NCBI GenBank assembly: GCA_944390685.1
Contig: CALXQL010000019.1
Coordinates: forward strand, 1 to 64,000
From: an uncultured Alphaproteobacteria bacterium
Lineage (GTDB): Bacteria; Pseudomonadota; Alphaproteobacteria; Rs-D84; CACZYB01
Length of the DNA stretch: 64,000 nt
Reading direction: 5' to 3'
Part shown: positions 2,111 through 50,030 of the stretch, piece by piece
How positions within the stretch are numbered: position 1 is the stretch's first letter
Layout: each line of letters begins with the position of its first letter
Translations under genes and position numbers: made by a program
Notes under the pieces: model-generated
Told to the model about the DNA's origin: nothing
Database searches by the model: none
The model's input: only the letters and a program-made list of their open reading frames with translations

Positions 2111-3340
2111 TTACACATCTCCATCTTGAAATAAATATAAATTTTTATCAATTTTTTCATTATCAACTTTAATTTTATCAATGAATTGATTTGGAAGAGT
2201 AGTCAAATGCAAATCCTTATCAACTTTTTCCACATATAAAGAAGATGAAGGCAAAGCCCATGCAGCACCAGCTTCTTCCACAATTTCTCTGATTTTAAAA
2301 AGTAAAGACTCTTTTACCTTTAACCAATCAGCCCAAACATTAGAATTAACAAAACAATATACCAACAAATCAATGGAATAAGGAGATAACATATCTACCC
2401 TAACTTGTAAAGAACCTTCCGGAGGTTTAATAACATTTGGGTTATCCATTAAATAATTTTCAATTTCTTGTCTTATATACCTAAGTTGATTAGCAGTAGT
2501 TCTATATTCAAGAGAAATAGTACAATTTATTCTTCTATACTTTCTTGATGATACATTAACAATGGCGGCATCTGCCAAAGTATTATTAGGAACATATAAA
2601 TAAGTTTTATCAAATTGCCTTATGATAGTAGAACGAAAACCTATATTTTCAACTATACCTTCCAATTTATAATCTCCACTTTTAAGTTCAATTATATCAC
2701 CTACATTAAACCTTTTTTCTGAAATAATAGCAATACCAGAAATAATATTCTTAAACATATCTTGCGCACCAAGGGCAACAGCCATACCTACGATACCCAA
2801 AGAAGCAATAAGAGTACTAACCTTTACCCCCCAACTTTCAAGTATAGAAGAAAAACCTATTATAAAAATAACGAATTTAGAAATTCTGACCACCCAAGTA
2901 ATAATAACAGTATTTGTATTATCAAGATGAGTTTTTTTAAACATCATAACAAAAGGATTAACCAAAGAATAAATTAACCAAGTAATATTAAAAATATATA
3001 AAGATTTTAACAAATTTCTTGTATAAAATAAAAAAGAAGCAGGCATTTTAATTACATTAAGAGATAAATATACACCCACAACTATTGGAATAAATTCAAT
3101 AGGCTGACCTATTTCTCGTAAAGATTGTTCTTGCCCATAAGTTATTTTTTTTAACACTAAAAAATTAAGCAACTTTACAATTAAAAAAGAAAATAAATCC
3201 TTAATCACCACAGCAAAAAGCATAATAAGAGTAGCGATTAACAATCTACCTACATTAGATAATTTAAGCCAAGAATAAAAATTATATATATAATCAGATA
3301 ATAAATTTAAATCAAAATTAGCCAAATTAAAATCCATCAT
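2111..3340 (-). CDS. MscS-family mechanosensitive ion channel
   Basis: A 409-aa small-conductance mechanosensitive channel protein that would release solutes on hypo-osmotic shock. Several N-terminal membrane helices precede the pore-lining TM3 segment, which reads SLGIVGMAVALGAQDMF, followed by the beta domain beginning ISEKRFNVGDIIEL. The soluble C-terminal part is typical of the family. I place the start at 3340 (Met-Met-Asp) because GAGGGA lies 8-9 bases upstream. An upstream in-frame ATG at 3400 has no ribosome site and precedes the extended -10 promoter at 3369-3377. It is the first gene of the mscS-DUF374-waaA operon. Confidence 0.9.
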   Translation of the reverse strand: MMDFNLANFDLNLLSDYIYNFYSWLKLSNVGRLLIATLIMLFAVVIKDLFSFLIVKLLNFLVLKKITYGQEQSLREIGQPIEFIPIVVGVYLSLNVIKMPASFLFYTRNLLKSLYIFNITWLIYSLVNPFVMMFKKTHLDNTNTVIITWVVRISKFVIFIIGFSSILESWGVKVSTLIASLGIVGMAVALGAQDMFKNIISGIAIISEKRFNVGDIIELKSGDYKLEGIVENIGFRSTIIRQFDKTYLYVPNNTLADAAIVNVSSRKYRRINCTISLEYRTTANQLRYIRQEIENYLMDNPNVIKPPEGSLQVRVDMLSPYSIDLLVYCFVNSNVWADWLKVKESLLFKIREIVEEAGAAWALPSSSLYVEKVDKDLHLTTLPNQFIDKIKVDNEKIDKNLYLFQDGDV

Positions 3341-5364: not shown

Positions 5365-7668
5365 ATGTCAATACAGGAAAGTTTTATACCAGAAAATATA
5401 AGACGGAATTTGTTAAAACTCTGTCAAAAATTTTTTGGTATTTTCCTTATATTTTTAAGTATTTATTTAACAATATCTTTATTTTTTTATAATGGTTTAG
5501 ATAATTCTGTCTTTACCTCATCATCTTTTCAAATAAAAAATATAACGTCCTCAATTGGAGCAATATATTCAAACTTTATGTATGAAATATTTGGTATCAC
5601 AAGTTTCATAATAAACTATTATATATACTTTTTTGGTATAGTTTTCCTAAAAAATAAAAAATTGAATTACTCATTATCAAAAATAAATATAAATATATTA
5701 CTAAGCATTATATTACTATCTCTAAATTTTTCATATTTATCAAGTCTACTTAACATTTCATATCCAACATCAACTGGTTTAGGGGGCTTACTTGGTTATA
5801 TAATAAAATTAGATATAAAGAGTTTATTAATAAGTTTATATATAACTCCTTACTTACAAATAATAATTGCAATATTGACTATAACAATAAACTTAATCAC
5901 ATTATATTTTTCATTAAACCTAACCGAAAAATCAATAATCTTAATTGAATATAATATGAATAGATTTTTTAACAAACTAATAAATATAATAAAAGAAAAA
6001 ATACTAAAAAAACAAATAAAAAAGAAAAAACAAACCATAAAAAGAAGTAAAATTTTAAAAACAATAAATAAGATAAAACCACAAACACATAAAAAAGAAA
6101 CTGCTATTATTACCCAACCTACCCCAATAAAACAAAAAACCACTATAACAAAAACAAATTATATATTACCAACAACAGATTTACTAAATCCAGTAAAACT
6201 TGATAAAAATTTATCAAATAACGAAGAAATAAATAGAAAAAAAGCAAATATGTTGGAAGGGGTTTTAACTGAATTTGGAATAGAAGGAAAAATCACAAAC
6301 ATAAAAACCGGACCTGTTATTACATTATTTGAAATGGAACCTGGAAAGGGGATAAAAACATCTCGTATAACAAACCTATCCGAAGACATTGCAAGAAACA
6401 TGTCCGCATTATCAACAAGAGTATCCGTAATCCCTGGCACTAATAAAATAGGAATAGAACTTCCAAACACCCATAGAAAGATGGTATATTTAAGGGAACA
6501 ATTTGAAAGCAACACTTTCAAACAAACAGAACATATCTTACCTATATCACTTGGAAATGATACAAGTGGAAATCCTGTATTTGTAGATTTGGCAAAGATG
6601 CCTCACCTATTAATTGCGGGAACTACGGGAAGTGGTAAATCTGTTGGTGTAAATGGAATGATATTATCATTACTATACAAATTCACCCCTGATGAATGTA
6701 AATTCATAATGATTGATCCAAAGATGTTGGAATTTTCAGTATATAACGATATTCCTCACTTACTAATCCCAGTTGTTATTGATCCAATAAAAGCTGTTGC
6801 AGCATTAAAATGGGCAGTAAGGGAAATGGAAGAAAGAAATAGAAATATGTCCGCAATTGGTGCAAAGAATATAGAATCCTATAATCAAAAAGCAAAAAAT
6901 ATGGTGGGAGAATATATAACAAGGGAGGTTCCAACTGGCTTTGACCCAAAAACTGGCGAACAAATAATGGAAGAAAAGAGAATTGAAATAAAACCTATTC
7001 CATATATTGTTGTAATAGTGGATGAAATGGCAGATTTGATGTTAGTTGCAGGAAAGGAAGTTGAAGCAGCAATTGCACGACTTGCAGCTATGGCAAGAGC
7101 CGCAGGCATACATTTAATTTTATCTACTCAACGTCCATCTGTTGATGTTATTACCGGCACAATCAAATCCAATTTCCCAAATAGAATAAGCTATCGTGTT
7201 GCTTCAAAAATAGACAGTCGCACCATCATAAATGAACAAGGCGCAGAACTAATGCTTGGAAAAGGAGATATGCTTTATATGGCGATGGGAGGAAATTTAA
7301 TAAGAATACATGGTGCTTTTGTATCTGAAGAAGAAATAGAAAGAGTAGTAAGTTTCATAAAGGCACAGGCAAAACCAAACTATGTAAAAAGTATTACATC
7401 TGAAAAACCATCAAAGGATACAAATCCAAGTCTTCTTGATAAAACTATATTTAGCGATGCAAAGGCAAATAAAGATGATGATTTATATAATCAAGCGGTT
7501 CAAATAATTTTAAATGCCCAAAGACCATCTATATCATATTTACAACGTCAACTTGGTATAGGATATAATAAATCTGCAAATTTAATTGAAAAGATGGAAG
7601 CAAATGGCATCTTATCGGCACCTGATTCCACTGGAAAACGAACAATCCTTACTAAAAAAGATAATTAA
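5365..7668 (+). CDS. ftsK: DNA translocase FtsK
   Basis: A 767-aa septal DNA pump that clears and aligns chromosome termini at division. N-terminal membrane helices (about 20-200) lead to a short Lys-rich linker, then the RecA-like motor with Walker A GTTGSGKS at about 417-424 and Walker B VVIVDEMADLM near 547-557. A C-terminal gamma winged helix (about 708-767) recognises KOPS-type polar sites and activates XerCD. The linker is short compared with the E. coli protein, as in many other bacteria. No clear Shine-Dalgarno site precedes the ATG, so translation may depend on coupling to tatA 13 bases upstream. Confidence 0.96.
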   Translation: MSIQESFIPENIRRNLLKLCQKFFGIFLIFLSIYLTISLFFYNGLDNSVFTSSSFQIKNITSSIGAIYSNFMYEIFGITSFIINYYIYFFGIVFLKNKKLNYSLSKININILLSIILLSLNFSYLSSLLNISYPTSTGLGGLLGYIIKLDIKSLLISLYITPYLQIIIAILTITINLITLYFSLNLTEKSIILIEYNMNRFFNKLINIIKEKILKKQIKKKKQTIKRSKILKTINKIKPQTHKKETAIITQPTPIKQKTTITKTNYILPTTDLLNPVKLDKNLSNNEEINRKKANMLEGVLTEFGIEGKITNIKTGPVITLFEMEPGKGIKTSRITNLSEDIARNMSALSTRVSVIPGTNKIGIELPNTHRKMVYLREQFESNTFKQTEHILPISLGNDTSGNPVFVDLAKMPHLLIAGTTGSGKSVGVNGMILSLLYKFTPDECKFIMIDPKMLEFSVYNDIPHLLIPVVIDPIKAVAALKWAVREMEERNRNMSAIGAKNIESYNQKAKNMVGEYITREVPTGFDPKTGEQIMEEKRIEIKPIPYIVVIVDEMADLMLVAGKEVEAAIARLAAMARAAGIHLILSTQRPSVDVITGTIKSNFPNRISYRVASKIDSRTIINEQGAELMLGKGDMLYMAMGGNLIRIHGAFVSEEEIERVVSFIKAQAKPNYVKSITSEKPSKDTNPSLLDKTIFSDAKANKDDDLYNQAVQIILNAQRPSISYLQRQLGIGYNKSANLIEKMEANGILSAPDSTGKRTILTKKDN

Positions 7669-7726
7669 AAAATTCTTGCTAAAATATAAAAATTAAACTA
7701 CACTTTAAAAAAACTAAGGAGATAAG

Positions 7727-8359
7727 ATGAAAGTATTCTTAATAATAATGAGTTTATTTTTTTCAAGTATAAGTTACGCCAATACAGATTTAACAAACAA
7801 TACAAAATTATTAAAGGAAATTGAAACTTATATGAATGCATTACAAAGTATAAGTGGAACTTTCAATCAAAAATCTTCAAATGGGGCAAAGGATTCTGGG
7901 ACATTTTATATAAATAAACCTGGAAGGATGAGACTTGAATACAAAAGCCCAATATTATTAGTTGCTGATGGTTCATCAATAGTATATTTTGATAAACAAT
8001 TAGATCAAATTTCATATATAGCATTGGATTCTAATCCTGCATCAATAATATTAAATGGCAATATAACATTAACTGGTAAAAATCCATCTGTAAAAATAAC
8101 AAATATCACAAAAACAGAAAATGATATATTGGAAATAAGCCTATCTCTTCCAAACGAAAATCAATCAGGTAAAATAAAAATTTTATTCCAAGCAAAACCT
8201 TTATCCCTAATTGGATGGGAAGTAAAAGATCCACAAGGTATTACAACCACCATAACCCTATCAAATATAAAACCCGAAAAAAATTTAAAAGACTCTTTAT
8301 TTAAAATAACAAGAAATAAAAGTTTCAATAATACAAAAAGTAAAAGTAAATATTATTAA
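7727..8359 (+). CDS. lolA: Outer-membrane lipoprotein carrier LolA
   Basis: A 210-aa periplasmic protein with an 18-residue signal peptide (MKVFLIIMSLFFSSISYA). It carries lipoproteins from LolCDE to the outer membrane. The family block GTFYINKPGRMRLEY is at about 63-77, followed by the expected SPILLVADGSSIVYFD strands. AAGGAGAT supports the start. The ftsK-lolA order is common in alphaproteobacteria. It is followed by tsaE after one base. The C terminus is Lys/Asn/Ser-rich and probably disordered. Confidence 0.92.
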   Translation: MKVFLIIMSLFFSSISYANTDLTNNTKLLKEIETYMNALQSISGTFNQKSSNGAKDSGTFYINKPGRMRLEYKSPILLVADGSSIVYFDKQLDQISYIALDSNPASIILNGNITLTGKNPSVKITNITKTENDILEISLSLPNENQSGKIKILFQAKPLSLIGWEVKDPQGITTTITLSNIKPEKNLKDSLFKITRNKSFNNTKSKSKYY

Positions 8360-8360
8360 G

Positions 8361-8780
8361 ATGGAAAAATATTTAATACCAACAGAAAATGACACAAAAA
8401 AACTAGCAATTGAATTATCCTCAAAAATAAATAAGGGTGATATAATTCTACTTTATGGTAATTTGGGAATTGGAAAAACATATTTTACTAGATGCTTAAT
8501 AAAGGCTTTAACAAATGAAACTGAAATTGTGCCAAGTCCAACATTCACAATAATACAAACATATCAAACCCAAAAGGGCGAATTATCACACTACGATTTA
8601 TACAGAATAAAAGATAAAGAAGAATTAATTGAAATAGGTTTATACGAAAGTTTAAAAAACAACATAACAATAATTGAATGGCCTGAAATAATAGAAGACT
8701 ACATAACAAAAAATTATCATCCAATAAAAATTTATTTTAATTTTGAAAAAGAAAATAGAACTATTTCTATAATAAAATAA
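8361..8780 (+). CDS. tsaE: tRNA t6A biosynthesis ATPase TsaE
   Basis: A 139-aa P-loop protein with GNLGIGKT at 33-40, the family block VPSPTFTI, and HYDLYRI in the Walker B region. TsaE works with TsaB and TsaD to form N6-threonylcarbamoyladenosine at position 37 of tRNAs that read ANN codons, which must be frequent in this AT-rich genome. TsaB and TsaD are not in the window. The gene starts one base after the lolA stop and is probably translated by coupling, since the ribosome site is weak. Confidence 0.93.
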   Translation: MEKYLIPTENDTKKLAIELSSKINKGDIILLYGNLGIGKTYFTRCLIKALTNETEIVPSPTFTIIQTYQTQKGELSHYDLYRIKDKEELIEIGLYESLKNNITIIEWPEIIEDYITKNYHPIKIYFNFEKENRTISIIK

Positions 8781-8868
8781 AAATTCCTCTTGTTTTATTA
8801 AAGATTTAATATATACTATTAGTATATATAAATTATAATTACAACTATAAGTTGTATAAGAGAGAGAA

Positions 8869-9921
8869 ATGATAACAAAACAAGAAAAAATGAAAAACGA
8901 GATAAAAACAATAAATCTTGATATAAAAATTCCAAGAAATTTAAAAACTACTCCTTTATCACGATTTTTTATATATTTTCCAAACACAAATAATTTTGAA
9001 TTAACAAATGGTAAAAATTTTGAAAATGGCTTCTATTCTATATCCAAAAAAGAAATGAAAACCACACAAATAATACAAAAATCATTAACTAATAAATTTC
9101 AATTTTTACTCGTATATAAAAATATATCTGAAACAGAAATAGTATCCAACATTTATTATGAAAATAATAAATTAATACCTGCTCCATTCATAAGCGCCAA
9201 TTACGACACAATAAACGAAAATGAAATTGATATAAATATAAATACTATGAATAATAAAAAGGATATAAAATTTGAAATAGAAGGTATTCCAACATCTGCA
9301 AGTTTAATAGGTGCAAAACATATAGATGATAATTTATGGATACCCACAAACAATAATAAACTACGTTTGATTTTATCACAAAATAATGATATAGAAATAA
9401 TAAAATTAAATATCATTGCATACGACATACATACACCAAAATATAAAAGCAATTTTAATTTAATAATAAAAGTAAAAAATTCCAATACCAATTATAATAA
9501 AAAATACCGCGAAATAATAATCAACCCACAAAAATTATTAGACGATGAAAAATTAAAATATGATAAATATATACTATCTATCACAAATGTACCAAACGAT
9601 GTATGTATTCATGATGCAATACACCTTGAAAATAAATGGATAATTGAAAACAAAAGTCATACTCATCTTGTAATAAGAAACTTTAACACACAAAACGATA
9701 TAATAAAACTGACATTAAACTATATATTGATAAATAATAAACCAAATAAAATTGAAACTTATAGCAAAACAATAAAATGCACATTTGCTAATAATGAAAT
9801 AAAGATAAAAAACTTTACAAAATGTGCATTATGTAAGAATCATGCAAAATGTAAAATTTTTGATAATTTTATGAATTATATTGGTAATTCAACACTTCTA
9901 AAACATATAATTAACAAATAA
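8869..9921 (+). CDS. Unknown protein with three beta-sandwich-like repeats and a Cys/His cluster
   Basis: I do not recognise this 350-aa protein. It appears to contain three diverged repeats (about 25-80, 125-185 and 230-295). The pattern is a strand pair ending in a G-P/A-L or VP turn, an aromatic strand such as DNLWIP or NKWIIE, a Leu-rich strand and a closing strand near KLNIIAYDI or KLTLNYILI. The pattern recalls VCBS/cadherin-like Ig domains of adhesins, but there is no signal peptide and the N terminus is polar. Near the C terminus C319-x2-C322-x2-H325-x2-C328 could bind a metal or Fe-S cluster. It stands alone between tsaE and gyrA with its own upstream AT-rich region. Adhesin, exported by another route, or a cytoplasmic scaffold are all possible. 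Confidence 0.7.
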   Translation: MITKQEKMKNEIKTINLDIKIPRNLKTTPLSRFFIYFPNTNNFELTNGKNFENGFYSISKKEMKTTQIIQKSLTNKFQFLLVYKNISETEIVSNIYYENNKLIPAPFISANYDTINENEIDININTMNNKKDIKFEIEGIPTSASLIGAKHIDDNLWIPTNNNKLRLILSQNNDIEIIKLNIIAYDIHTPKYKSNFNLIIKVKNSNTNYNKKYREIIINPQKLLDDEKLKYDKYILSITNVPNDVCIHDAIHLENKWIIENKSHTHLVIRNFNTQNDIIKLTLNYILINNKPNKIETYSKTIKCTFANNEIKIKNFTKCALCKNHAKCKIFDNFMNYIGNSTLLKHIINK

Positions 9922-9999
9922 AAATGAAAAATAAAAAAATATTTATATAACCAATTGATTTTACATAATAAAAAAAGTCAAAAAATATCTCTTTTTTCC

Positions 10000-10028
10000 T
10001 TGCTTTTCAAAGTAAAAATTGCTAGTAT
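10000..10028 (+). promoter_or_regulatory. Sigma-70 promoter of gyrA
   Basis: TTGCTT (10000-10005), a 17-bp spacer and TAGTAT (10023-10028) preceded by TG form a good promoter about 37 bases before the gyrA start. An AAGGAGA ribosome site follows. Confidence 0.7.
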
Positions 10029-10064
10029 CAAGCTATAAAAATTTCAAAGAAAAGGAGAATAAAA

Positions 10065-12866
10065 TTGGATAATACAACAAATATAGAAACATCTCAAAAT
10101 AATATGGATAAAAGTATAAAAATTACTCCTATTGTCCACGAAATGCAAACCTCATATTTGGATTATGCGATGAGTGTTATTATATCCCGAGCCTTACCTG
10201 ACGTAAGGGACGGATTGAAACCAGTTCATAGAAGAATAATCTACTCCATGAAGGAAAATGGGTTTGAATATGGTAAACCATTTAGAAAATCCGCTCGTGT
10301 AGTCGGTGATGTTATGGGTAAATATCACCCACATGGTGATGCTGCAATATATGATGCAATGGTTCGTATGAGTCAAGATTTCTCTATGGGAATAACAATG
10401 GTGGATGGACAAGGAAACTTCGGTTCTATGGATGGGGATAGTGCTGCTGCTATGCGTTATACCGAAGCAAGAATGTCAAAGGCAGCCGCTTATATGGTTG
10501 AGGATTTAGATAAAGACACCGTAGATTGGCGACCAAATTATGATGAATCAACAAAGGAACCTGAGGTATTACCTGCACGTTTTCCAAATCTTCTTGTAAA
10601 TGGAAGTGGTGGTATTGCGGTAGGTATGGCTACAAATATTCCAACTCACAATTTATGTGAAATAATTGATGCTTGCTGTGCATTGATTGAAAATCCTGAA
10701 ATAAATGTAGAGGATTTAATAAAATATGTTCCTGCCCCTGATTTCCCAACTGGAGGTATGATTTTGGGCTTATCTGGTTCATATAGTGCATATACAACTG
10801 GAAGAGGTTCTATAATCATAAGGGCGAAAACACACTTTGAAGAAGTTCGCACAAAAACAGCTATAATAGTTGATGAAATCCCATACCAAGTAAATAAAAA
10901 GGTTATGATTGAAAAAATCGCTGAATTGGTAAAGGATAAAAGAGTTGAAGGCATTTCTGATATAAGAGATGAATCATCTCGTCAAGGAGTAAGGGTTGTA
11001 ATTGAACTTAAAAAGGATGCCAATGCCGATGTTGTTTTAAATCAATTATTCAAATTTTCCCAATTACAAGTAAGTTTTGGAATAAATATGCTTGCTATAA
11101 ATAAGGGAAGACCTGGACTTATGAACTTAAAACAAATATTGGAAGCATTCATAGAATTCCGTGAAGAAGTCATAAGAAGAAGAACCTTATATGATTTAAA
11201 TAAAGCAAGAAATAAAGCTCATATATTGGTTGGTTTGGCAATTGCTGTTGCAAACTTGGATGAAGTTATAACATTGATAAGGAATGCAAAAGATCCAAAC
11301 GATGCAAAGGATAAATTAATGTCTTGCGATTGGAAAGCAACTGATATGCAAGTCTTAATTGACTTAATTGATGATCCGGAAAGTAAAATTGTAAACGGAA
11401 CTTATCGTTTAACCGAAGCTCAAGCAAAAGCTATTCTAGAATTAAAACTTCATCGTTTAACTGGACTTGAACAAGATAAGCTTGCCGAAGAAATCAAACA
11501 AACCGGACTTGACATCCAAGAATTGCTTTCAATTTTATTAAATAGAAGTAAATTATTAACCATATTGAAAGATGAATTAATTGAGGTAAAGGAAAAATTC
11601 GGCACCCCAAGAAAAACTGAAATAATCCCATCTGAATTGGAAACTGATTTAGAAGATTTAATTGCACGTGAAGATATGGCAATAACAATAACCAACACAG
11701 GTTATATAAAACGTGTTCCATTAAATGTGTATAAGGCACAAAATCGTGGTGGAAAAGGAAGAACCGGTATGAATACAAAAGAAGAAGATTTTGTAACCGA
11801 TGTTTTTGTTGCAAATACCCATACACCTTTAATATTCTTCTCAAACAAAGGTATTGCATATCAAATGAAGGTATATAAATTACCATTATGCACCCCACAA
11901 TCAGTTGGAAAGGCATTAATAAACCTACTTCCACTTGAACAAGGAGAAACAATTTCAACAATAATGCCACTTCCAGAAGATGAAAGCGAATGGGAAAAAC
12001 TTTATGTGATGTTCGCCACATCAAAAGGAACCGTAAGAAGAAATAAATTATCAGACTTCTTAAACATTCGTCAAAATGGAAAAATAGCAATGAAATTTGA
12101 TGAAGAAGGTGATGAACTAATCGCAGTAAAACCATGTCGTGAAGATCAAGATGTATTCTTATCATTAAAAGGTGGTAAATGTATCCGCTTCCCTGTTCCA
12201 GAAGTAAGAGTATTCCAAAGCCGTAACTCAACTGGAATAAAAGGAATAAAGGTTGAAAACGGGGATAAAGTGATATCTATGTCAATAATAAACCACGTTG
12301 ATACTGATGCGGATACTCGTATAGCCTATCTTAAAAAATCAAAATCATTAAGACATACAGATGAAGATTTGGAAGGTGAAGAAATTCTTGAAACCACAAA
12401 AACTTTAACTGATGAAGAATTCAAAACACTTCAAGAAAAGGAACAATTCATTTTAACCATAAGTGAAACAGGTTTTGGAAAAAGAACATCTTCTTATGAA
12501 TATAGAATAACTCACAGAGGAGGTTCTGGTATTGCAAATATAAAAATTGCAGAAAAAACAAAATCTGTTGTTTCATCATTCCCAGTATTGGATAGCGATA
12601 ATATCTTAATGGTAACAGATGGAGGAAAGATGATTCGTCTAGCTGTAGATAAAATAAGAATTGCAGGACGACAAACAATGGGTGTTACTCTTCTAAAAAC
12701 CGCTGATGATGAAAAAGTTGTATCAACTGCAATCATTGCGGAAAATGAAGAGGAAGAAGAAGAAATCATTCAAAATAATGATGAAACTACACCTTCATCA
12801 ACACAAGAACAAACAATTGAAGAAACACCAACATCAAATGAAACAAAAACTGATTTATTTGAATAG
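10065..12866 (+). CDS. gyrA: DNA gyrase subunit A
   Basis: A 933-aa breakage-reunion subunit of gyrase, which introduces negative supercoils with GyrB. The catalytic Tyr is Tyr132 in [10 protein letters not shown]. The C-terminal beta-pinwheel carries a GyrA-box-like [11 protein letters not shown], which separates it from ParC, and ends in an acidic tail. In the quinolone-resistance-determining region, [13 protein letters not shown], the residue equivalent to E. coli Ser83 is Ala93. The reading frame begins with TTG after AAGGAGAATAAAA; no ATG gives a better start, so TTG initiation is likely. tatB follows after 10 bases, so gyrA may be transcribed with the tat genes. Confidence 0.95.
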
Positions 12867-15457: not shown

Positions 15458-18400
15458 TTAAAATTTATAATCTAATCCAAACACTATTTGATTATTCTTA
15501 TAATCATTTTTAAAATCAGATATAAATTGAAGAGAAATATCAAATTGATTATAAAAATCCAAATTTAAATCAAGCCCAAATGAAAATTTATCTTTTGCAA
15601 AAGGCAAAGCAACAGAATTAAATTCCAAATCTGTATTTTCAAACATAGCTGTCAAATACACATCATCTACCATAAATCTAGAATACCCTATAAAGAATGA
15701 AGGATTAAAAACAAAATCTTCTAATTTTTTATTAAAAGCAAAATAAAAATATAAAGGTATTTGAGTCAAAGTGAAATCTTTTTGTTCAATGCATCTATTA
15801 ACACCCCCATCGCCATTTTCACAAAAACCTTCTTGATCTATATAAGAAATATTCAAACCAATTTTAGGATAGAAATAAAAATCATCAAATTTCCATTTAT
15901 ATCCAAAATCTAAAAATGTATCAACTATATAAGTATCAAAACTAGCATCTGTATTCAAACTTTCCTCTAAATTAACAAAATGGAAATAAGAATCATTTAC
16001 AAAAGATGAAAAACCAACCCCATAATCAATAAAGAAATTTTTTAACTCACTTAAAGCATAAACATCTACACCAAATAGAGCACTATCAATATCAATAACT
16101 TTGTCTTTTGAAGAAAAAGAAGAATCTCCCAAAACGAAGGCAATACCTAACAAAGAATTTTCACCTTTTAAAACTTTATCAAAACCAAAACTAACGCCAT
16201 AAAAATCATTATCAAAACCAATATATTCATTAACATTTTTTTGACTAATAGAAGAATGAAGAGGATATATCCATAATTCACTTTCAAGATAATCATTTTT
16301 AATAAAAGGATTTAATCTATCAATTATTGGTTGTCTTATTACATCATTGATTTGAGGCATAAACGCAAGAAAATCAGCATACTTTTCAACAGATAAATCA
16401 TTCAACACTTTTTTCAAAAAAGATACACTACCTATATCAGTATAAATGAAATTCACTACATCATTTAATTCTGTCTCTAAATTTAAAACATCATATAAAT
16501 CATTTACAACATCAGCGATTTGATATTCATTAAAGGATAATCCAGGCACTTGTTTAATATTAAGATTTGAAGGATTAACGACAATATATAAAACATTTTT
16601 TCCGGCATATTCACCACTTGTTTCTATTACCCATTTTGCAGTATAATTTGTAAATAAACTTTCTCTAAATTCAAGATGTTGAGCAATATTAAGAGGATTA
16701 GTAGTACTTTCATAATCAGCAATCAATACAGGAAATACATTTTCCTCTCCATCAATAATTCTACCATTAGAAACTACTAATATAGATGAATCATTTTCAA
16801 ACCCAACTTCCCCATTAACAATAAGTTTAGATTCTATTGCATTTTGATTTACAGAAGTATTTGGTTCTATGATAGCCAAATACCCACCATTATTTTGTAA
16901 AAATAAATCCCCATTTACTTTTAATATACTATTAACATTTGAAGTAATCCAGCCTCCATTACTTACAATCAAAGGACTATTATTTAAATTTATGCTTCCA
17001 TCACCAAACAATAATCCATTTACATTGAAATCATTTTTAACATCTACTATTGCTCCATCATATAACCCCAAAGAAGAATCAGCATAAATATTGATTTCAT
17101 TTGCAGATAAAGTAGCATTCTTGATTTCCACCTCACCTATCAAAGACTTATCAAAATCAGTTTTTACATTATTACCAACATTTAAAGTTCCATCAATATT
17201 AAAATCATAACTTAAATTTAAAATAGCATTATCTATTATACTAAAATTGCCATCACCAAGAATATTCATATTTTGTAAAGGTGTCATATTAGCTCTAATA
17301 AAAATAGTTCCATTATTTAAAAAATTTTGCGATAAAAAATTCTTCCACATAGAATCATCACTAGAAGCAATATCAATAATTGTATTCTTATCCCCCAAAT
17401 AAAAATTACCATTATTAGAATTCACACCATTGATATTATTCACAACATAATTATAAAAATATTCACCATCATCAATATTTGTTCCAATATTATATACAGC
17501 ATTTTTACCAAAAGAAAGCCTTCCACCTTCATTAAGATATATATTCCCAGCATTACTTAAAACAGAATCTATATAAACCCAACCACCATCAAGTATATTC
17601 AAATTTGAATCATATAATGATAAATTAACATTATTAGAAGATGATAAAACTTTCCATAAAGCCCCAGACGCTATATCTATATTTTGATTTCTAAAATCTA
17701 ATAACAAACTACCATAAATAGAATTGATAGTATAATTATTAAAAGAATTCATATTGCCAATTTGAAAATCATTATTCCCCAACAAAGATAAATTAGAATT
17801 ATTAAAAAATAACATTCTTGCTCTTTGATTTAATGAGCCATCATTTACGACAAAGATATTAGATAATAAATCAGCATTATTACTATTTGATAAATTTACG
17901 ATATCCGCATACTTACTTAAAAATATTTTTCCATTATTTAAAGAAGAATAAGAAGCATCATTTTCAAATACCAAAGAAGATCTATCATAAACATCATTAT
18001 TTGCACCTATGATATTAACTATACCATAATTTTGAAACTGACTATTTTCCACATTTATAATGGAAGACGGAAATATTGCTTGGTCAGTATTTCTTAAAGA
18101 AGATACAATATTGATAACACCTGCTTTATTATTTTGTAAAAGAGAATAAGAATACAAATATGAATCATAAAGATTTAAATATCCTATACCTCTTCCAAAA
18201 TTTTTTTCTCCTACAATAAATGAGCTATCATAACCAACCACTATTTGCCCTATATTTCTATTTGATAAATTATTACCATTCATATTAAAAAAGGCACGTC
18301 CATCTTGGGAAGAATATACATAAACCTCTCCATTATTTGATATTGAAATACTCCCACCTGGATTAACATTTAAAATTGTATTAAGAAGATTAAAATACTC

Positions 18401-42901: not shown

Positions 42902-43597
42902 ATGGAAATAGTTGAAAGATATAAAGAAGGTTTTAAACCAAAATCCTCAATAATAAATGAAGAAAATAGTAAAAAAATTGTTTTATTCTTATTTGGATTA
43001 GTAATAATATATTTTATAGGCTTCATAATTTTTGCTTATAAATTAAATTACGAAGATACCGCACCAAACGAACCAACTGATGCAATAATTGTTTTAACAG
43101 GGGAAAGTAAACGCATAACTGATAGTATAAAGGAACTTGCAAAAAACAATTCCAATAAATTGTTTATTTCTGGCATATATAAACAAAGTTCATTGGAAAA
43201 TTTAATAAATAAAACAATCCAAGATTTACAAAATGAAAAATCTTTAAAAATTAGTCCTCAATCATTAAAAAGTCGTATTTCAATGGGACGTGCAGAAAAC
43301 ACAATTGAAAATGGTCTTGAAAGTGCATCTTGGATACAAAAAAATAATATAAATTCAATCCGCTTGATGACCTCTTACTACCACATGCCACGAAGCAAAT
43401 TAATCTTTGAAAAATATATACCTCATATAAAAATCATAGAACACCCAATTTTATTTGGCGAAAAAAAACCATCAATATTTGATAAAAATGTATTTAAAGT
43501 ATTATTTAGTGAATATAATAAATACATAATCACTTATATATGGAACAAAGCCGGATTTGAATCAACATTCATATTAAAATTACAGGAACAACTATAA
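42902..43597 (+). CDS. DUF218 / YdcF-like membrane protein
   Basis: A 231-aa protein with one membrane helix (about 27-50) and a DUF218 domain: the DAIIVLTGESKRI strand near 61-73, a LFISGI strand, GRAENTIENG near 137-146, and the block MTSYYHMPRSKLIFEK. The family includes SanA and ElyC, involved in envelope integrity. Placed between ftsX and plsC, one base overlap with the latter (TAATG), so it is co-translated. Confidence 0.88.
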   Translation: MEIVERYKEGFKPKSSIINEENSKKIVLFLFGLVIIYFIGFIIFAYKLNYEDTAPNEPTDAIIVLTGESKRITDSIKELAKNNSNKLFISGIYKQSSLENLINKTIQDLQNEKSLKISPQSLKSRISMGRAENTIENGLESASWIQKNNINSIRLMTSYYHMPRSKLIFEKYIPHIKIIEHPILFGEKKPSIFDKNVFKVLFSEYNKYIITYIWNKAGFESTFILKLQEQL

Positions 43598-44304
43598 TGC
43601 AAATACTACGCTCTTTAATATTTAATATACTATTTATATTAAACACAGCCTTTTGGTCAATTTTGGGAACACTATCACTTTTATTTCCTAAAAAAGTATT
43701 AATATTTATATCATATATGTGGAGTTATACAACTCTACTTTTATTAAAATATATATGTAATATAAGATATGAAGTAAAGGGACTTGAAAACATACCACAA
43801 AATGAAAATGTAATATTTGCATCAAAACACCAATCTGCATGGGAAACTATTGCATACCAATATATTTTAGGAAATACAATATTTGTATTTAAAAAGGAAC
43901 TAGCATACATTCCATTTTTTGGATTAACTTTATTAAAAGCAGGCAACATAATGGTTGATAGAGGTGCAAGTAATAAAACAACTCTAAACAAACTAATAAA
44001 AAAATTTAAAAAGACATTAAAATATAGAAATATTATTATTTTTCCGGAAGGCACTCGCACACTTCCAAATACAACTGCAAAATATAAATCTGGTTTAAGC
44101 ATTATTGCACATAATATAGAAAATAAATATGTTGTTCCTATTGCAATAAATTCTGGCATCTATTGGCCAAAACATGGTTTTATAAAAAAGCCTGGAACAA
44201 TAAAGGTTCATATTCTACCTGCCATAAAAACCGGTATTTTATCAAAAGAAGAGTTTCAAAAACTATTAACTCAACAAATAGAAGATGAAACAAAAAAACT
44301 ATAA
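43597..44304 (+). CDS. plsC: 1-acyl-sn-glycerol-3-phosphate acyltransferase
   Basis: A 235-aa membrane-bound acyltransferase that makes phosphatidic acid. An N-terminal hydrophobic pair (about 8-50) precedes the acceptor motif SKHQSAWETI near 79-88, an HX4E form of the usual HX4D, and IIFPEGTRTLP near 147-157. The gene starts inside the DUF218 stop (TAATG). Its own stop codon directly abuts the stop of the convergent pilin-like gene with no intergenic base. Confidence 0.92.
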   Translation: MQILRSLIFNILFILNTAFWSILGTLSLLFPKKVLIFISYMWSYTTLLLLKYICNIRYEVKGLENIPQNENVIFASKHQSAWETIAYQYILGNTIFVFKKELAYIPFFGLTLLKAGNIMVDRGASNKTTLNKLIKKFKKTLKYRNIIIFPEGTRTLPNTTAKYKSGLSIIAHNIENKYVVPIAINSGIYWPKHGFIKKPGTIKVHILPAIKTGILSKEEFQKLLTQQIEDETKKL

Positions 44305-45780
44305 TTAATTGGACCAATTCATATTATCATTTGACGAATTACCAGTGCATTGTTGCTTTGCACATCTATAATATTCATCATAAATTAACCCAGGCATAGG
44401 ATCTACCATACCATCATAATTATTTTTAACGACTCTATAAATATCGGCATATTCATAACTCAATCCCCGCAACACAACGGAAAGAGGAGTTTTTTCAGTA
44501 ATGACTATATTACCAATACGATTTCCAAGAAATTGATCATTAACATTTTTTACCACCACATCAGATAAGTTAACCCTCACTGGTGAAGAAAGAATATTAT
44601 ATTTAGTTTTATTTTTTAAACTATAAATATTATTAAACACGAATCCAACTTTTGGAATACTGACCCCACCAATGGTAATTCCCATACTGCCACCACTTGC
44701 CAAATTGGTATCAATATTAACATTAGAAAGATTCATATTACCAAATTGAGCATAAATAGAAGAAAGTGCAGGTGTTTTAATCAAAGCCCCTACAAACAAA
44801 TTAACTGGCACATTAACAGATAATTTTTTTGCAGTGATAAAAGTGAATTTATCAAGCAATCCACTTATACTACTTGAAGAAGTCAAAAGATTCCCCATAA
44901 CTTGCAAAGTTTCTTCCAAAATGATAGAAGAAGTAGCCTCATCATCAAAACTTAAAGAAGGCTGATTTATACCATTAATAAATGATACGGAAGATTTACT
45001 TGCATCCATAACTTTATTTAAAGTTAATTGATCATCTACGGAAAGAATATTTACATCTCCCACACCTGATGCGGATAAAAATAAATCATTTACTTCTATT
45101 TTACCTTCCACACCTTTATCCAACCCTTCCACCCCAGCGGAAATAATAAAATTATTGATTTTATCAATATTATTAAGATTCATAAATAAATCCGTTCTCA
45201 TAGTAGAAGAACCAAAACCATTACGAGAAATATATTGATAATCTTTTTTTGCAAAACCAATTTTAAATACTATTGGAGGAGTAGCCCAACTTTCCCCCCA
45301 TCCAGCAGCGTCCAAAGACCAACTAGCTCCATAAATAATACCATCTTCCAAATATCCACCAAAACCTTTACTTTCCTTCACAATATCACGTATACGCATA
45401 TCAGGAATTTCAGGATTGCCATCAGCAATTATAATAGCATCATATTCAACATTACCATCACTTTTTTCCCTAGCCCTAACCTTAACTTTATAATTCTGTC
45501 CTATGATATTGACCTTTTTAAAATTTTTTGGAAGTCCATTTTCCTCCAATACAGAAAAAGGAATTTCACTAACCCCTAATTTAATATCAGGTTTTAACTT
45601 CAAATAATTTTCAGTTGCAGTTTTTAATTTAGTCATATCCTTTACTACTAATTGATTACGTAAAGTGTCAGACTTTTGCTTAATATTTTTTTGAAGTATA
45701 GGGAAAACAACTATCAAAATCCCTAACATGAGAAGTATTTCTAATAATATACTACCTTTATCATTTTTATGTTTATACAT
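44305..45780 (-). CDS. Large pilin-like protein 3 (type IV pilin N terminus)
   Basis: A 491-aa protein with a short basic leader, a prepilin site G9/S10, Glu14 at the +5 position and a hydrophobic helix (ILLEILLMLGILIVVFPIL). The remaining 450 residues are rich in Ser, Asn, Leu and beta strands and end with a Cys pair (YRCAKQQCTG). It is far longer than ordinary pilins (150-200 aa). Related proteins lie upstream in the same operon. Function unknown; it may be a minor pilin or adhesin carried by a type IV pilus-like fibre. The GGAG site precedes the ATG; no assembly ATPase or prepilin peptidase gene lies in the window. Confidence 0.72.
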   Translation of the reverse strand: MYKHKNDKGSILLEILLMLGILIVVFPILQKNIKQKSDTLRNQLVVKDMTKLKTATENYLKLKPDIKLGVSEIPFSVLEENGLPKNFKKVNIIGQNYKVKVRAREKSDGNVEYDAIIIADGNPEIPDMRIRDIVKESKGFGGYLEDGIIYGASWSLDAAGWGESWATPPIVFKIGFAKKDYQYISRNGFGSSTMRTDLFMNLNNIDKINNFIISAGVEGLDKGVEGKIEVNDLFLSASGVGDVNILSVDDQLTLNKVMDASKSSVSFINGINQPSLSFDDEATSSIILEETLQVMGNLLTSSSSISGLLDKFTFITAKKLSVNVPVNLFVGALIKTPALSSIYAQFGNMNLSNVNIDTNLASGGSMGITIGGVSIPKVGFVFNNIYSLKNKTKYNILSSPVRVNLSDVVVKNVNDQFLGNRIGNIVITEKTPLSVVLRGLSYEYADIYRVVKNNYDGMVDPMPGLIYDEYYRCAKQQCTGNSSNDNMNWSN

Positions 45781-45792
45781 TTAAAACTCCAT

Positions 45793-47163
45793 TTAAGGTA
45801 TAATTAAATTGTTAATTTTACTTTCCAAATCATTAAGTGCAGATGTAAATCCTGTTGCAAAAGTAGTTAAATTCACTTTATTTAAGATTTTACCATCACA
45901 ATTTCCAGGTGTATGACAAGCATCATAAATAACAACCGAAGCCCCAGCAGGCACATTTATTCTACCTGCATTTGTATTGAAAGAATTATCTTGATTGACT
46001 ATATGCCCATCTTTAACAGTCAAAGTATGTGCGGATAAATTATTTACATCACTTGCGGAAATTTCCATTCTTAAATTGGTTGGATCAGAATCTAAAGTAA
46101 GAGGTTCAATATTCAAATTTGTATTATAATTATTATACCCATCAAGCAATGAAATTTGCATATTTCTAGTTAATAAATTGGAAAGCTTTGCGATTCCCTC
46201 TACAATAACATTTGCACGGAAACTTGATAAAGATAAAGAAGAATTTTCCAACAAAGCATTAGGAGTTAAAAAATCATCTAATACAGAAGAACCAGATAAA
46301 GCGCCATTTGAATAAGAAGTTATTTTAAGCAAATCAGTCATAATATAAGCATCACTTGCAAAAGAAAATACACCTTTCAAAATGATACTATTATCAATAT
46401 TTAACTTACCTTCCAAATTACCATTATTAAATTTTAATTCACTAACGAAACCATCTTTTTGCACAGAAGATTTCAAATTAGATGTATTAATAGTCCCAAA
46501 ATTATTTATAGAATATCCCCCCAAACTCAAATTAACTAACATGGTATTACCATCTTTACCACCTTGATTATTTCTATAAAGATAATTAGAAGAGGCATAC
46601 TCATTTTCCAAATTAGTATCATCAATTTTAATCACAGCAATGAAATCACCAGATACATTAGATGCTATATTTGCAAAAGGTTCTGACCAAGCCCCTGTAA
46701 TTGAATAAGCATAATTATCTTCTTTATAACCAGCCGTATCACCAGCATATAATAAAGTCTGTTTAAATCCCATTTCATCAAGTCCAAGATAATCCATATA
46801 AATCACAGCAAATACATTAACTGCACCTTGAGCATCTTTAATATATTTAATTATCATATTATTTGTTAATTCCTCTGGAGTATCCTCATTTAAACCATAA
46901 TTATCAACCAAAGTTTTATATACATCTTTATTCAAACCGCCATTTGAACCATTGGGCCACTTTTCCTTTTCAATTGCAGCATAATTCATCATAGCCTTTT
47001 CAATCATTTTCAATTGCTTTGCGGTATTTATATACTTTACCTCATATAATTCTCTAAAAGAAAATCGCAAAACAACCGGTGTGATAATAGTCATAATTGC
47101 CAAAGCAAGAATAATTTCCATTAAACCTAAACCCGATTGATCTTTGTGATAAAATTTAATCAT
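45793..47163 (-). CDS. Large pilin-like protein 2 (type IV pilin N terminus)
   Basis: A 456-aa protein with prepilin site G11/L12, Glu16 at +5 and the helix LMEIILALAIMTIITPVVL. The body has NNGNLEGKLNIDNS- and LSSFRANVIVEGIAKLSN-like strands and a C-terminal Cys pair (DACHTPGNCDGK). I place the start at 47163 (AGGTGGA upstream); the longer frame to 47286 lies inside the preceding gene. The ATG overlaps the stop of the preceding gene by 8 bases (ATGATTAA), so translation is coupled. Paralogous to the two flanking genes by layout. Confidence 0.72.
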   Translation of the reverse strand: MIKFYHKDQSGLGLMEIILALAIMTIITPVVLRFSFRELYEVKYINTAKQLKMIEKAMMNYAAIEKEKWPNGSNGGLNKDVYKTLVDNYGLNEDTPEELTNNMIIKYIKDAQGAVNVFAVIYMDYLGLDEMGFKQTLLYAGDTAGYKEDNYAYSITGAWSEPFANIASNVSGDFIAVIKIDDTNLENEYASSNYLYRNNQGGKDGNTMLVNLSLGGYSINNFGTINTSNLKSSVQKDGFVSELKFNNGNLEGKLNIDNSIILKGVFSFASDAYIMTDLLKITSYSNGALSGSSVLDDFLTPNALLENSSLSLSSFRANVIVEGIAKLSNLLTRNMQISLLDGYNNYNTNLNIEPLTLDSDPTNLRMEISASDVNNLSAHTLTVKDGHIVNQDNSFNTNAGRINVPAGASVVIYDACHTPGNCDGKILNKVNLTTFATGFTSALNDLESKINNLIIP

Positions 47164-48475
47164 TTGTTCCACCTGCATTATTAGTATATAAAGCCCATAA
47201 TTCCAAAAGCTTATTATAAATATTTTGTAATTGAGTAGAAATACAATTTCCCCCTGCCCAACAAATATCAACCACTTCGGAAACACCAGAAAGATTTAAT
47301 TTACTACTACTACTTGGATCAAAATCACCATAACTATACATAGTTCCATCATATATATAAGTTTCAATTCCCTCATTATCCTTTAAATTGATAGTATTAA
47401 ATTTATTTGCCACTGGACCATTTGAATCCAAACTTTCAGCCACTACATCAGATGCACCAAAACTCCAACCACTATCAACATTTCCAGAAGATGAAACAAC
47501 ATTTAATTCACCTTCAACTACTAATTCATTTGTCTCCAAATTTTCTGCTTCCAAATCACCTGGATCTAATTCTATATTTGAAAATTCAGCATCTTGAACC
47601 TTCAAAGAATTTATATTAACAGTTTTAGGTTTGATTTGCATTTTTGCATCTGGGAAAGGAGCAGTATTTTCAATTGAAAAGACCCCATCTAAAACAGAAT
47701 CAGCAATACTCAAATTTTTTCCGGCAAGCCCAGCCACCTTCATACTACTTAATATATTGATGACAGTTCCATTTGCATTAAATACATCAATAAGGTTATT
47801 ATTATTTATATCTAAATTTGCCAACATAGTATTTACAACAACACTATCACCAGGTCCCTTATTAATATATAAATAATCAGAAACAGCAAAACCATCACTT
47901 ACAAACATAACCAAAGCACCTTGATTTCCAATAATTTTTGAAATTTCAGTTTTCAAAGTTGGAGATAATTTTGCCTTATAATTAGTTAATTCTGTATGAT
48001 CTATAGTAGAAAGCACAACACCTTGATCAAACAAATATTCACCAATACTATTTAATGTAATGTCATCAACATCACCATAAGCAAACACTGCAGCTTCAAT
48101 AATATCAGCCGGTTCATCAACAGTTCCTATTTGTTTTTTACAAGTAATAAAAGAATAAACTTGTCCAAATTTATTAGAAGTTGCAATTTTTTCACCACCA
48201 TAATCTTGTAATAAATTTATCATTTCATTACCAGTTTTAACCACACACCCATCTGGAATATCTGTTCTATCAAAAGAAATATAAGAAGTTACAGCCTTTT
48301 GAAGCAAAGTCATTTGAGTTATGACTTCTTCCCTATTTATAGATTCGTTATATTGACGTATTTGATTCATAATAACCGGAGTCATAGCAACCATAATAGC
48401 CAAGCCTAACAAAACTTGCATCAATACAGCACCGGATTGTGCTTTTTTCAAAAGATTTCTTGAATAAAAATGCAT
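47156..48475 (-). CDS. Large pilin-like protein 1 with Gln at position +5
   Basis: A 439-aa protein and first gene of the operon. The leader KKAQSG ends at G15, then A16-V-L-M-Q20: the +5 residue is Gln instead of the near-invariant Glu. The helix continues VLLGLAIMVAMTPVIM. The rest is beta-rich with a C-terminal Cys pair (DICWAGGNCIST). Loss of Glu at +5 is known in tip pseudopilins of the GspK type, which suggests a tip or initiating role, but that is inference. GAGGAGAGAGAA precedes the ATG. Confidence 0.72.
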   Translation of the reverse strand: MHFYSRNLLKKAQSGAVLMQVLLGLAIMVAMTPVIMNQIRQYNESINREEVITQMTLLQKAVTSYISFDRTDIPDGCVVKTGNEMINLLQDYGGEKIATSNKFGQVYSFITCKKQIGTVDEPADIIEAAVFAYGDVDDITLNSIGEYLFDQGVVLSTIDHTELTNYKAKLSPTLKTEISKIIGNQGALVMFVSDGFAVSDYLYINKGPGDSVVVNTMLANLDINNNNLIDVFNANGTVINILSSMKVAGLAGKNLSIADSVLDGVFSIENTAPFPDAKMQIKPKTVNINSLKVQDAEFSNIELDPGDLEAENLETNELVVEGELNVVSSSGNVDSGWSFGASDVVAESLDSNGPVANKFNTINLKDNEGIETYIYDGTMYSYGDFDPSSSSKLNLSGVSEVVDICWAGGNCISTQLQNIYNKLLELWALYTNNAGGTND

Positions 48476-48589
48476 TTCTCTCTCCTCAAAAAACTATCAT
48501 ACAAAAAAAAATATTAAAATAAAAGAAAAACTTTATGTAGAAAATAAAAAAAAATTAATATATAATGAAACAACAAAAAGGAGGATTCT

Positions 48590-49117
48590 ATGAATAAAAA
48601 AATATATATATTTACATTACCAATAATTATATTACTTACAATATTTGTAGCAATTCTTCCTATACAAATAGCATCAAATTTAAAAGAAGAAATAATTCAA
48701 AATAAAAAAGAACAAATAAAACTAATCAATGAAAAAATACAATTAATCCCAGAAATAATAAATATATCAAAAGGATATATAATAAATGATGAAGAAACTT
48801 TAAAGGATATAATAAAAATAAATATATTATCAAAGGAACAAACCTCAAATCTCATAACTACATACAATAATCATATTGAATTATTAAATATATCAATGAA
48901 ATTGATAAACGATTCAAAAGAACATATCCTTCTAACCTCAAATAAAGATTTTATGAACAGTGCAACCGAAATTGAAAATTTATATAAAATGATAGAATTA
49001 AAAAGAAATGATTGTATGAAATCGTCAAACTTATTATTAAAAATATCAAATCTTCCAATATATAAGAATATTATAAAAATGGATGATATAGGCAATTATA
49101 TATGTAATGATATATAG
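48590..49117 (+). CDS. Divergent LemA-like membrane protein
   Basis: A 175-aa protein with an N-terminal membrane helix (about 5-28) followed by long helices. The segment LIPEIINISKGYIINDEETL (about 52-71) matches the LemA pattern of a LIPxL(V)xxxKGY helix with ETL, and the C-terminal part has the expected helix with an E..I..KR.D pattern near 126-140. The rest is poorly conserved, so I call this LemA-like and not LemA. Function of the family is unclear. GGAGG supports the start. Divergent from the pilin-like operon; one base separates its stop from that of the convergent XRE gene. Confidence 0.6.
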   Translation: MNKKIYIFTLPIIILLTIFVAILPIQIASNLKEEIIQNKKEQIKLINEKIQLIPEIINISKGYIINDEETLKDIIKINILSKEQTSNLITTYNNHIELLNISMKLINDSKEHILLTSNKDFMNSATEIENLYKMIELKRNDCMKSSNLLLKISNLPIYKNIIKMDDIGNYICNDI

Positions 49118-49118
49118 T

Positions 49119-49580
49119 TTAAATTGAACCAGTCATAGAAACTATGAAATCTAATATTTTTTGTCTTTTTTCTGGATCTGCCAAACGCCAATAGGCATTT
49201 ACTAAACGTAAAGTTTCTGTATTATTCATAACATCTTCAAATTGAGTTTCATCTTCACAAACCTTATCCAAAGTTTCTTGATCCAAGCCCAAAGATTTCA
49301 CGACATCAGGTAATTCTTTTTCCAAACCGAAAAAGAAAAAACCGACATCAACTTGTAAAACCTTTGCTATGATAAACAATCTACTGGCACTAATTCTATT
49401 AACACCATTTTCATATTTTTGAACTTGTTGAAAAGTAACCCCAATCATAGAAGCCAATTCATCTTGACTCATACGAAGCATGACACGTCTTAACTTCAAT
49501 CTTTTTCCAACATAAGCATCAAGAAGATTTATATCAAGTTCGTTTAAATCTTTTTCAATTTTTTCATTATCAAATTTCAA
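49119..49580 (-). CDS. XRE-family transcriptional regulator
   Basis: A 153-aa cytoplasmic protein with a helix-turn-helix domain at about 24-82: GKRLKLRRVMLRMSQDELAS, GVTFQQVQKYENGVNRIS. The C-terminal part (about 90-150) is helical and typical of alphaproteobacterial HTH regulators of this length. Target genes unknown. Possible partners are the divergent HIT-protein gene or the adjacent LemA-like gene, with only about 90 bases of shared upstream region. AGGGGTTAT precedes the ATG. Confidence 0.88.
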   Translation of the reverse strand: MKFDNEKIEKDLNELDINLLDAYVGKRLKLRRVMLRMSQDELASMIGVTFQQVQKYENGVNRISASRLFIIAKVLQVDVGFFFFGLEKELPDVVKSLGLDQETLDKVCEDETQFEDVMNNTETLRLVNAYWRLADPEKRQKILDFIVSMTGSI

Positions 49581-49673
49581 GATAACCCCTTTAATCTTGT
49601 ATTATTCAAAATAATATTATATAATATATATACAATAAAACAAATGAAAAATCAAGATAAATAGGAAGTAAAA

Positions 49674-50030
49674 ATGACATATAATAAAGAAAATATATTT
49701 GCAAAAATAATAAGAGGAGAAGCCCCTTCAACAAAACTCTTTGAAAATGATTCTGTGATAGTAATCAAAAATCTTTATCCAAGAGCAAAAATACATTTGT
49801 TAATATTACCCAAAGGAGAATATGAATCATTTACAACATTTTCACAAAAAGCAAGTGATAAAGAAAAATTGGATTTATACGAAGCAATAAATGAAATAAT
49901 AAAAGAATATAACTTAAATGAAAATGGATATCGTTTAGTAGCCAATACAGGAAACTATGGTGGACAATCAATTGAACATTTCCACATACATATTTTAGGT
50001 GGAGAAAAATTAGAAAGCTTTGGTCTATAA
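49674..50030 (+). CDS. HIT-family nucleotide hydrolase (HinT-like)
   Basis: A 118-aa HIT protein: the triad motif HFHIHILGG near 102-110 and N-terminal NIFAKIIRGEAPSTKLFEND are diagnostic. HinT enzymes hydrolyse adenosine phosphoramidates. AGGAAGT precedes the ATG. It is convergent with the bactofilin/tRNA-Thr unit; 23 bases separate its stop from the tRNA CCA end. Confidence 0.93.
   Translation: MTYNKENIFAKIIRGEAPSTKLFENDSVIVIKNLYPRAKIHLLILPKGEYESFTTFSQKASDKEKLDLYEAINEIIKEYNLNENGYRLVANTGNYGGQSIEHFHIHILGGEKLESFGL

Follow-up and report, generated by a model that had tools for sequence, protein, structure and literature searches.

Three tandem PilV-like minor pilins conserved across the alphaproteobacterial order Rs-D84, a probable heteromeric tip of a type IVb pilus

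Why would an uncultured alphaproteobacterium of the order Rs-D84 keep three consecutive genes for large pilin-like proteins on a stretch of DNA with no pilus machinery beside them? The window analyzed here (the whole stretch of 64,000 nucleotides, positions 1 to 64,000 of contig CALXQL010000019.1 in assembly GCA_944390685.1, hereafter contig C19) holds these genes, g1, g2 and g3, together called the trio, on its minus strand (Table 1). A preliminary description made from the letters alone had reported three consecutive coupled genes for proteins of 439-491 amino acids (aa); its coordinates and motifs were correct, and lengths of 439, 456 and 491 aa were confirmed. The length of g2 was counted from an ATG, the 497-aa open reading frame (ORF) being a start at an upstream GTG. 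The coding regions of g1 and g2 overlapped by 8 bp, and those of g2 and g3 were 12 bp apart. The prepilin sites and pilin helices named in that description were also borne out: each protein had a short basic leader with a final Gly, a hydrophobic helix with Pro at +18 and a beta-rich body, and the cleavage sites (arrows) read LLKKAQSG↓AVLMQ in g1, YHKDQSG↓LGLME in g2 and KHKNDKG↓SILLE in g3. From the evidence below we infer that the three paralogs form a tip complex, probably a heteromeric one, on an R64-type type IVb pilus encoded in the chromosome.

The first ~220 residues of all three proteins were homologous to plasmid PilV, which serves R64-type type IVb pili as an adhesin at the tip. When aligned by hhalign against six plasmid PilVs, g1, g2 and g3 gave E values of 1.7e-21, 3.3e-19 and 1.9e-22 over 221-228 columns; once the pilin helix was removed, the values were 4.9e-15, 1.1e-11 and 1.7e-14, compared with 0.25-0.55 for reversed controls. 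Profiles were needed for this link because tblastn of g2 against plasmids returned PilV matches only at E of about 2-3. The window proteins did not reach the cut-off of the Pfam family Shufflon_N (PF04917): g2 scored 22.3 bits against 27.5 (E 1.1e-4), and g1 and g3 had no match. Among the orthologs, Shufflon_N matches at E up to 0.1 were found in 3 of 21 g1, 3 of 21 g2 and 2 of 21 g3 proteins, the best values being 5.2e-6, 2.4e-5 and 1.2e-9, respectively. The trio proteins had no match in NCBIfam, and their sequence-profile searches of the PDB gave only pilin-helix matches plus weak or chance ones. A model of the g1 N-terminal domain (225 aa, nine sequences) was of moderate quality, with a predicted local distance difference test score (pLDDT) of 67.5 and a predicted template modelling score (pTM) of 0.63. 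In the VIA comparison of this model the top 14 rows were all pilins, including TcpA (Z 8.5), the type IVb pilin of enterotoxigenic Escherichia coli (7.8) and TcpB (7.1); the pilin rows ended at Z 5.0 and the first non-pilin stood at 3.9, although VIA Z values in this range are not always specific. Because of this sharp break and the agreement with the sequence profiles, the domain is likely to have the type IVb pilin fold, so that the structure prediction proposed in the preliminary description came out in favor of a pilin. Membership of the trio in the PilV/TcpB kind of type IVb minor pilin is well supported. The epithet "giant" therefore lost its force, since PilV homology makes this size normal for the family; R64 PilV, TcpB and CofB are similarly large.

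The arrangement was conserved across the order. The first set comprised the window and 20 relative loci from six families, f1-f6 (21 loci in all), and the second set comprised 40 further loci, none of them profile seeds. All 21 first-set loci had three large tandem prepilin genes on one strand with gaps of -35 to +35 bp (a contig end truncates g3 of L045), and all 63 of their trio proteins had the prepilin leader and pilin helix. With seed profiles assigned by gene position, every protein scored highest with its own paralog group; L043 and L045 also read g1-g2-g3, although neither had served as a seed. This order was observed in 21/21 first-set and 38/40 second-set loci, 59 of 61 from six families, and the remaining two were truncated by contig ends, demonstrating the recurrence beyond chance. 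The g2 search matched 56 of 59 genomes (the window's own and relatives of the order), and the g3 profile matched 183 of the 190 genomes of the order, including 121 of 126 of good quality. The C-terminal Cys pairs of the preliminary description were present in all three window proteins, but only that of paralog 1 was conserved. Counted within the last 110 residues, the pair occurred in 20 of 21 g1 orthologs, whereas the remaining ORFs of 300-700 aa in these loci had it in 8 of 57 cases, showing that it is a real, conserved trait of g1; in g2 and g3 it was variable.

In a tree of 80 N-terminal domains (63 from trio proteins, 11 from single-gene alphaproteobacterial homologs and six from plasmid PilVs, used as root), g1, g2 and g3 each formed one clade, with supports of 95/89, 97/92 and 88/85, and the 63 trio proteins grouped together (92/90) against the 11 single-gene homologs. 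L099, a single-gene homolog in which the script found no cleavage site, and eight other class loci were left out of the tree. Because each paralog made one clade and the trio as a whole another, the phylogeny indicates that the trio arose by one ancient triplication. Outside the order, the g3 profile matched 30 of 380 genomes of the class (34 of 385 in all). Of the 20 loci read from the 30 matching genomes, 18 had one homolog each, some of them partial and several close to or above 1,000 aa, and none had an orthologous g1-g2-g3 set; genome G079 had two homologs 7 kb apart. Locus L094 (genome G146, also outside the order) carried three tandem large prepilins of 659, 426 and 578 aa at 7058-12073, with weak trio-profile scores, perhaps an independent trio. 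In other alphaproteobacteria, lone PilV-like prepilins (L095, L097, L099, L100 and L101) measured 966-1185 aa, roughly double the length of a trio protein.

The three paralogs differed at mature position 5. Paralog 1 had Gln5 in 52 of 58 readable cases (15/21 first-set and 37/37 second-set loci), while Glu5 was found in 60/60 g2 and 59/61 g3 proteins, the other two g3 having Asp; in the second set residue 5 could not be read in one g1 and one g2, and the g1 genes of two loci fell outside the contigs. Exactly one subunit without Glu5 was present in families f1 (bar one locus) and f5, and all three had Glu5 in the f2, f3, f4 and f6 loci read. On the tree, the Gln/Glu5 state of g1 required three changes, all within g1. 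In the available text of a TcpB study, the Gln5 variant still made pili but secreted and agglutinated poorly, and for the Val5 variant loss of retraction was measured, its pili hardly retracting (PMC5207764). In tip complexes elsewhere, the cap is described as one minor pilin lacking Glu5 (PMC10191384, consulted as an excerpt). By analogy, Gln5 in g1 may be the mark of a capping pilin, which would place g1 outermost.

Table 1. Positions of the trio genes and of their aligned regions and Cys pairs in the window
Feature	Coordinates	Strand	Remark
g1, PilV/TcpB-like minor pilin, 439 aa	47156..48475	(-)	Mature residue 5 is Gln; a capping subunit by prediction
g2, PilV/TcpB-like minor pilin, 456 aa	45793..47163	(-)	Glu5
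g3, PilV/TcpB-like minor pilin, 491 aa	44305..45780	(-)	Glu5
g1 region aligned to PilV (residues 7-246)	47738..48457	(-)	Pilin helix and alpha/beta pilin domain
g2 region aligned to PilV (residues 4-235)	46459..47154	(-)	
g3 region aligned to PilV (residues 4-218)	45127..45771	(-)	
g1 C-terminal Cys pair, CWAGGNC	47243..47263	(-)	Cys pair in 20/21 g1 orthologs
g2 C-terminal Cys pair, CHTPGNC	45898..45918	(-)	Cys pair in 7/21 g2 orthologs
g3 C-terminal Cys pair, CAKQQC	44347..44364	(-)	Cys pair in 12/21 g3 orthologs

The remark that no assembly machinery is nearby was right for the window's contig, which held none of the genome's matches to T2SSE ATPases or A24 peptidases, but the machinery was found dispersed on contigs C3, C5, C6 and C11. 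The prepilin peptidase, assembly ATPase and secretin that the preliminary description had suggested looking for were all present. An A24 prepilin peptidase was encoded at C5:9604-9945 (E 7.6e-16), and the enzyme was found in 54 of 59 genomes. A six-gene cluster on C3 encoded PilL (TcpQ-type), the PilN secretin, PilO, PilP, the PilQ ATPase and the PilR platform. PilN matched TIGR02520 (E 8.8e-71, below its cut-off) and PilO matched PF06864 (E 6.2e-19); PilQ and PilR were recognized by PF00437 and PF00482, and PilP by a weak TIGR03021 match only (E 0.0021). Compared with the plasmid thin-pilus operons of Pseudomonas and Thalassospira, PilL, PilN, PilO, PilQ and PilR matched and PilP did not. Among ten relative loci, the cluster was whole or nearly so in six (one truncated by a contig end), and four f5 loci had PilO-P-Q-R only. 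Of the order's 190 genomes, 179 had PilR; PF06864 was matched in only 39 of 59 because PilO diverges. As in the toxin-coregulated pilus (TCP), a dedicated retraction ATPase was not found, the genome's only two T2SSE ATPases being PilQ and a VirB11-like enzyme.

No PilS-family pilin (PF08805) was matched in the genome up to E 10. However, a 160-aa prepilin that does not belong to the PilS family was found on C11 with the N_methyl model, and it had relatives in 59 of 59 genomes; two further small pilins of the window genome were encoded on C5 and C6. Small prepilins of 165, 169 and 160 aa with a common G↓RS(M/I)xE start were dispersed over L132 (1895-2392, minus strand), L133 (2794-3303, minus strand) and L011 (1102-1584, minus strand) and are candidates for the major pilin. 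Because ~160-aa pilins were present in all 59 genomes, a separate fibre built from the trio is unlikely; of the "specialised fibre or tip complex" suggested earlier, the tip complex is the half supported by PilV homology, the predicted type IVb fold and the machinery in the genome. The machinery elsewhere in the genome also ruled out that the trio is an orphan or represents a new class of fibre. A marked expansion of small pilins was seen in G011, where one genome of ~1 Mb gave 19 matches, several in open frames of >500 aa. In four f5 genomes (L050, at 2670-3137 on the minus strand, L051, L052 and L054), a prepilin of ~155 aa starting G↓ASMIEI lay ~2-3 kb from the trio, and in L050 it was adjoined by OmpA-, OmpH- and LpxD-like genes.

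These parts suggest how a tip complex may be built. The A24 peptidase would cleave the three prepilins, whose helices would pack together at the PilR platform in the inner membrane, probably 1:1:1, with paralog 1 (Gln5 in the window and most relatives) as the first and outermost subunit. Primed by one such complex, the PilQ ATPase would assemble the small (~160 aa) pilins, and the complex would leave through the PilN secretin, the beta-rich bodies forming an adhesive or cargo-binding head at the outer end. In TCP and the CFA/III pilus, according to the part of the literature consulted, a single minor pilin, TcpB or CofB, forms a homotrimer with two roles, pilus initiation and the binding of a secreted partner (PMC9565799). 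For Tad pili, a heterotrimeric KilLMN tip is predicted (an excerpted source, PMC12075869), and this is the closest precedent for the trio.

The trio resembles several known systems and differs from each. PilV of R64-type (IncI/MPF_I) thin pili shares with it a prepilin leader, ~220 residues of N-terminal homology, a similar length, the same machinery type and an N-x-M...M-G-x-N motif at the domain end; unlike the three paralogs away from the pil cluster, PilV is one gene beside pilS/T/U, often with shuffled 3' ends. A shufflon is not present in all PilV systems. No shufflon inverted repeats of at least 16 bp were detected in 43500-49700, which rules out a phase-variable shufflon. TcpB and CofB are likewise large minor pilins with a TcpA-like pilin domain, a beta-rich C-terminal part and no retraction ATPase found, but they are homotrimers of a single gene product (TcpB with Glu5), whereas the trio has three genes, the first usually with Gln5. 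The KilLMN/TadEFG tips of Tad (type IVc) pili also consist of three minor pilins, some of them large, and KilLMN is the proposed heterotrimer; their bodies are unrelated and their machinery is of the Tad type, in contrast to PilV-family paralogs with R64-type machinery. Like the trio, the GspIJK and PilHIJK tip complexes combine several minor pilins, one without Glu5; these pilins, however, belong to type II secretion and type IVa systems, lie outside the PilV family and are mostly small.

Each paralog might instead form its own homotrimeric tip, giving three alternative PilV-like adhesins on different pili as a fixed counterpart of shufflon variants. Known type IVb minor pilins are homotrimers in the accessible text of PMC9565799, PilV variants are reported to bind different partners (PMC9045228, in part), and the bodies of the trio are less conserved than the N-terminal domains: between the window and L041, identity was 77, 72 and 79% in the N-terminal domains of g1, g2 and g3 and 64, 59 and 66% over the whole length. 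If the adhesins were interchangeable, losses and duplications of single genes should be seen, whereas the trio was intact in the 59 of 61 loci, and the switch to Gln at residue 5 falls on paralog 1 only, so that separate homotrimers seem rather unlikely. Two further readings are less probable. The trio being a secretion pseudopilus tip (GspIJK-like) or a carrier for a TcpF-like secreted protein, not an adhesin, would agree with the export of cognate secreted proteins by TcpB-type tips (described in the part of PMC9565799 consulted) and with the lack of a dedicated retraction ATPase, but the machinery is of the R64/TCP type (TcpQ, PilN, PilO) and not that of type II secretion, making this role improbable. 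A service in DNA transfer or uptake, whether mating-pair contact for a chromosomal VirB-like system or competence, is more improbable still: contig C20 carries a VirB-like cluster with a VirB11-like ATPase and a TrbC/VirB2 pilin, and thin pili of conjugative plasmids stabilize mating pairs (PMC9045228, same portion), yet trio and cluster are on different contigs.

The heteromeric tip itself has several observations weighing against it. In the window genome the trio (C19) does not adjoin its putative machinery (the pil cluster on C3). Foldseek returned no match at E <0.001 for the g1 N-terminal domain or the g2 model, and the full-length g2 model was poor (pLDDT 48.8). On the supporting side, the N-terminal domain of that model matched pilins (Z 5.8 and 5.4) and its body matched beta-helix proteins, weakly. 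Glu5 occurred in g1 of 6 of 21 first-set loci (five in f2, f3, f4 and f6, and one in f1), and the Gln5 count is not an independent one because nearly all 40 later loci came from f5. Co-loss of trio and PilR was not seen: PilR was retained in 6 of 7 genomes without a trio match, indicating that the two are not strictly co-inherited, although missing assembly and loss are indistinguishable here. Five genomes with PilR and no trio match (G017, G462, G486, G487 and G527) were 86-99% complete; either real loss or an assembly gap is possible.

The protein encoded at 48590-49117 on the plus strand (175 aa) was divergent from the trio, had a hydrophobic stretch at its N terminus and gave no Pfam match, and similar-sized genes stood at the equivalent position in the f1 relatives L041, L042, L046 and L048. 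No RNA element was detected in the trio region at gathering score, and a promoter and terminator scan was uninformative (30 promoter-like sites versus 34.5 expected). The VirB-like type IV secretion cluster of C20 lay at L008 5570-15706, where the VirB11-like ATPase (PF00437) and TrbC/VirB2 pilin (PF04956) were identified by Pfam and the VirB8/9/10-like neighbors were named by eye only; near it, at 17439-18164 on the minus strand, was a protein rich in Cys, with repeats of the CPAGxYC type, that is apparently exported.

A literature search covering few subscription journals found no published description of this trio or of pili in the order, and no earlier case of a heteromeric tip on a type IVb pilus; the consulted portion of a study of Rs-D84 (Ca. 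Enterousia) refers to type IV pili only in connection with a different lineage (PMC12306168). The protein kind itself is known, and the moderately novel element is a triplet, fixed order-wide, whose members show signs of having divided the labor. We tentatively suggest, with less assurance than for the tip complex as such, that the order turned a homotrimeric type IVb tip into an obligate heterotrimer by triplication, with a Gln5 cap that only starts the pilus and two Glu5 subunits, in parallel to KilLMN, and kept it through extreme genome reduction. In the existing model, one trimeric tip protein explains both the priming of type IVb pili and their retraction without a retraction motor. The seeming division of these roles between three paralogs, one of which naturally carries Gln5, would provide an evolutionary test of that model, and it predicts that nearly all members of this uncultured order, with genomes of ~0.9 Mb, make a pilus.

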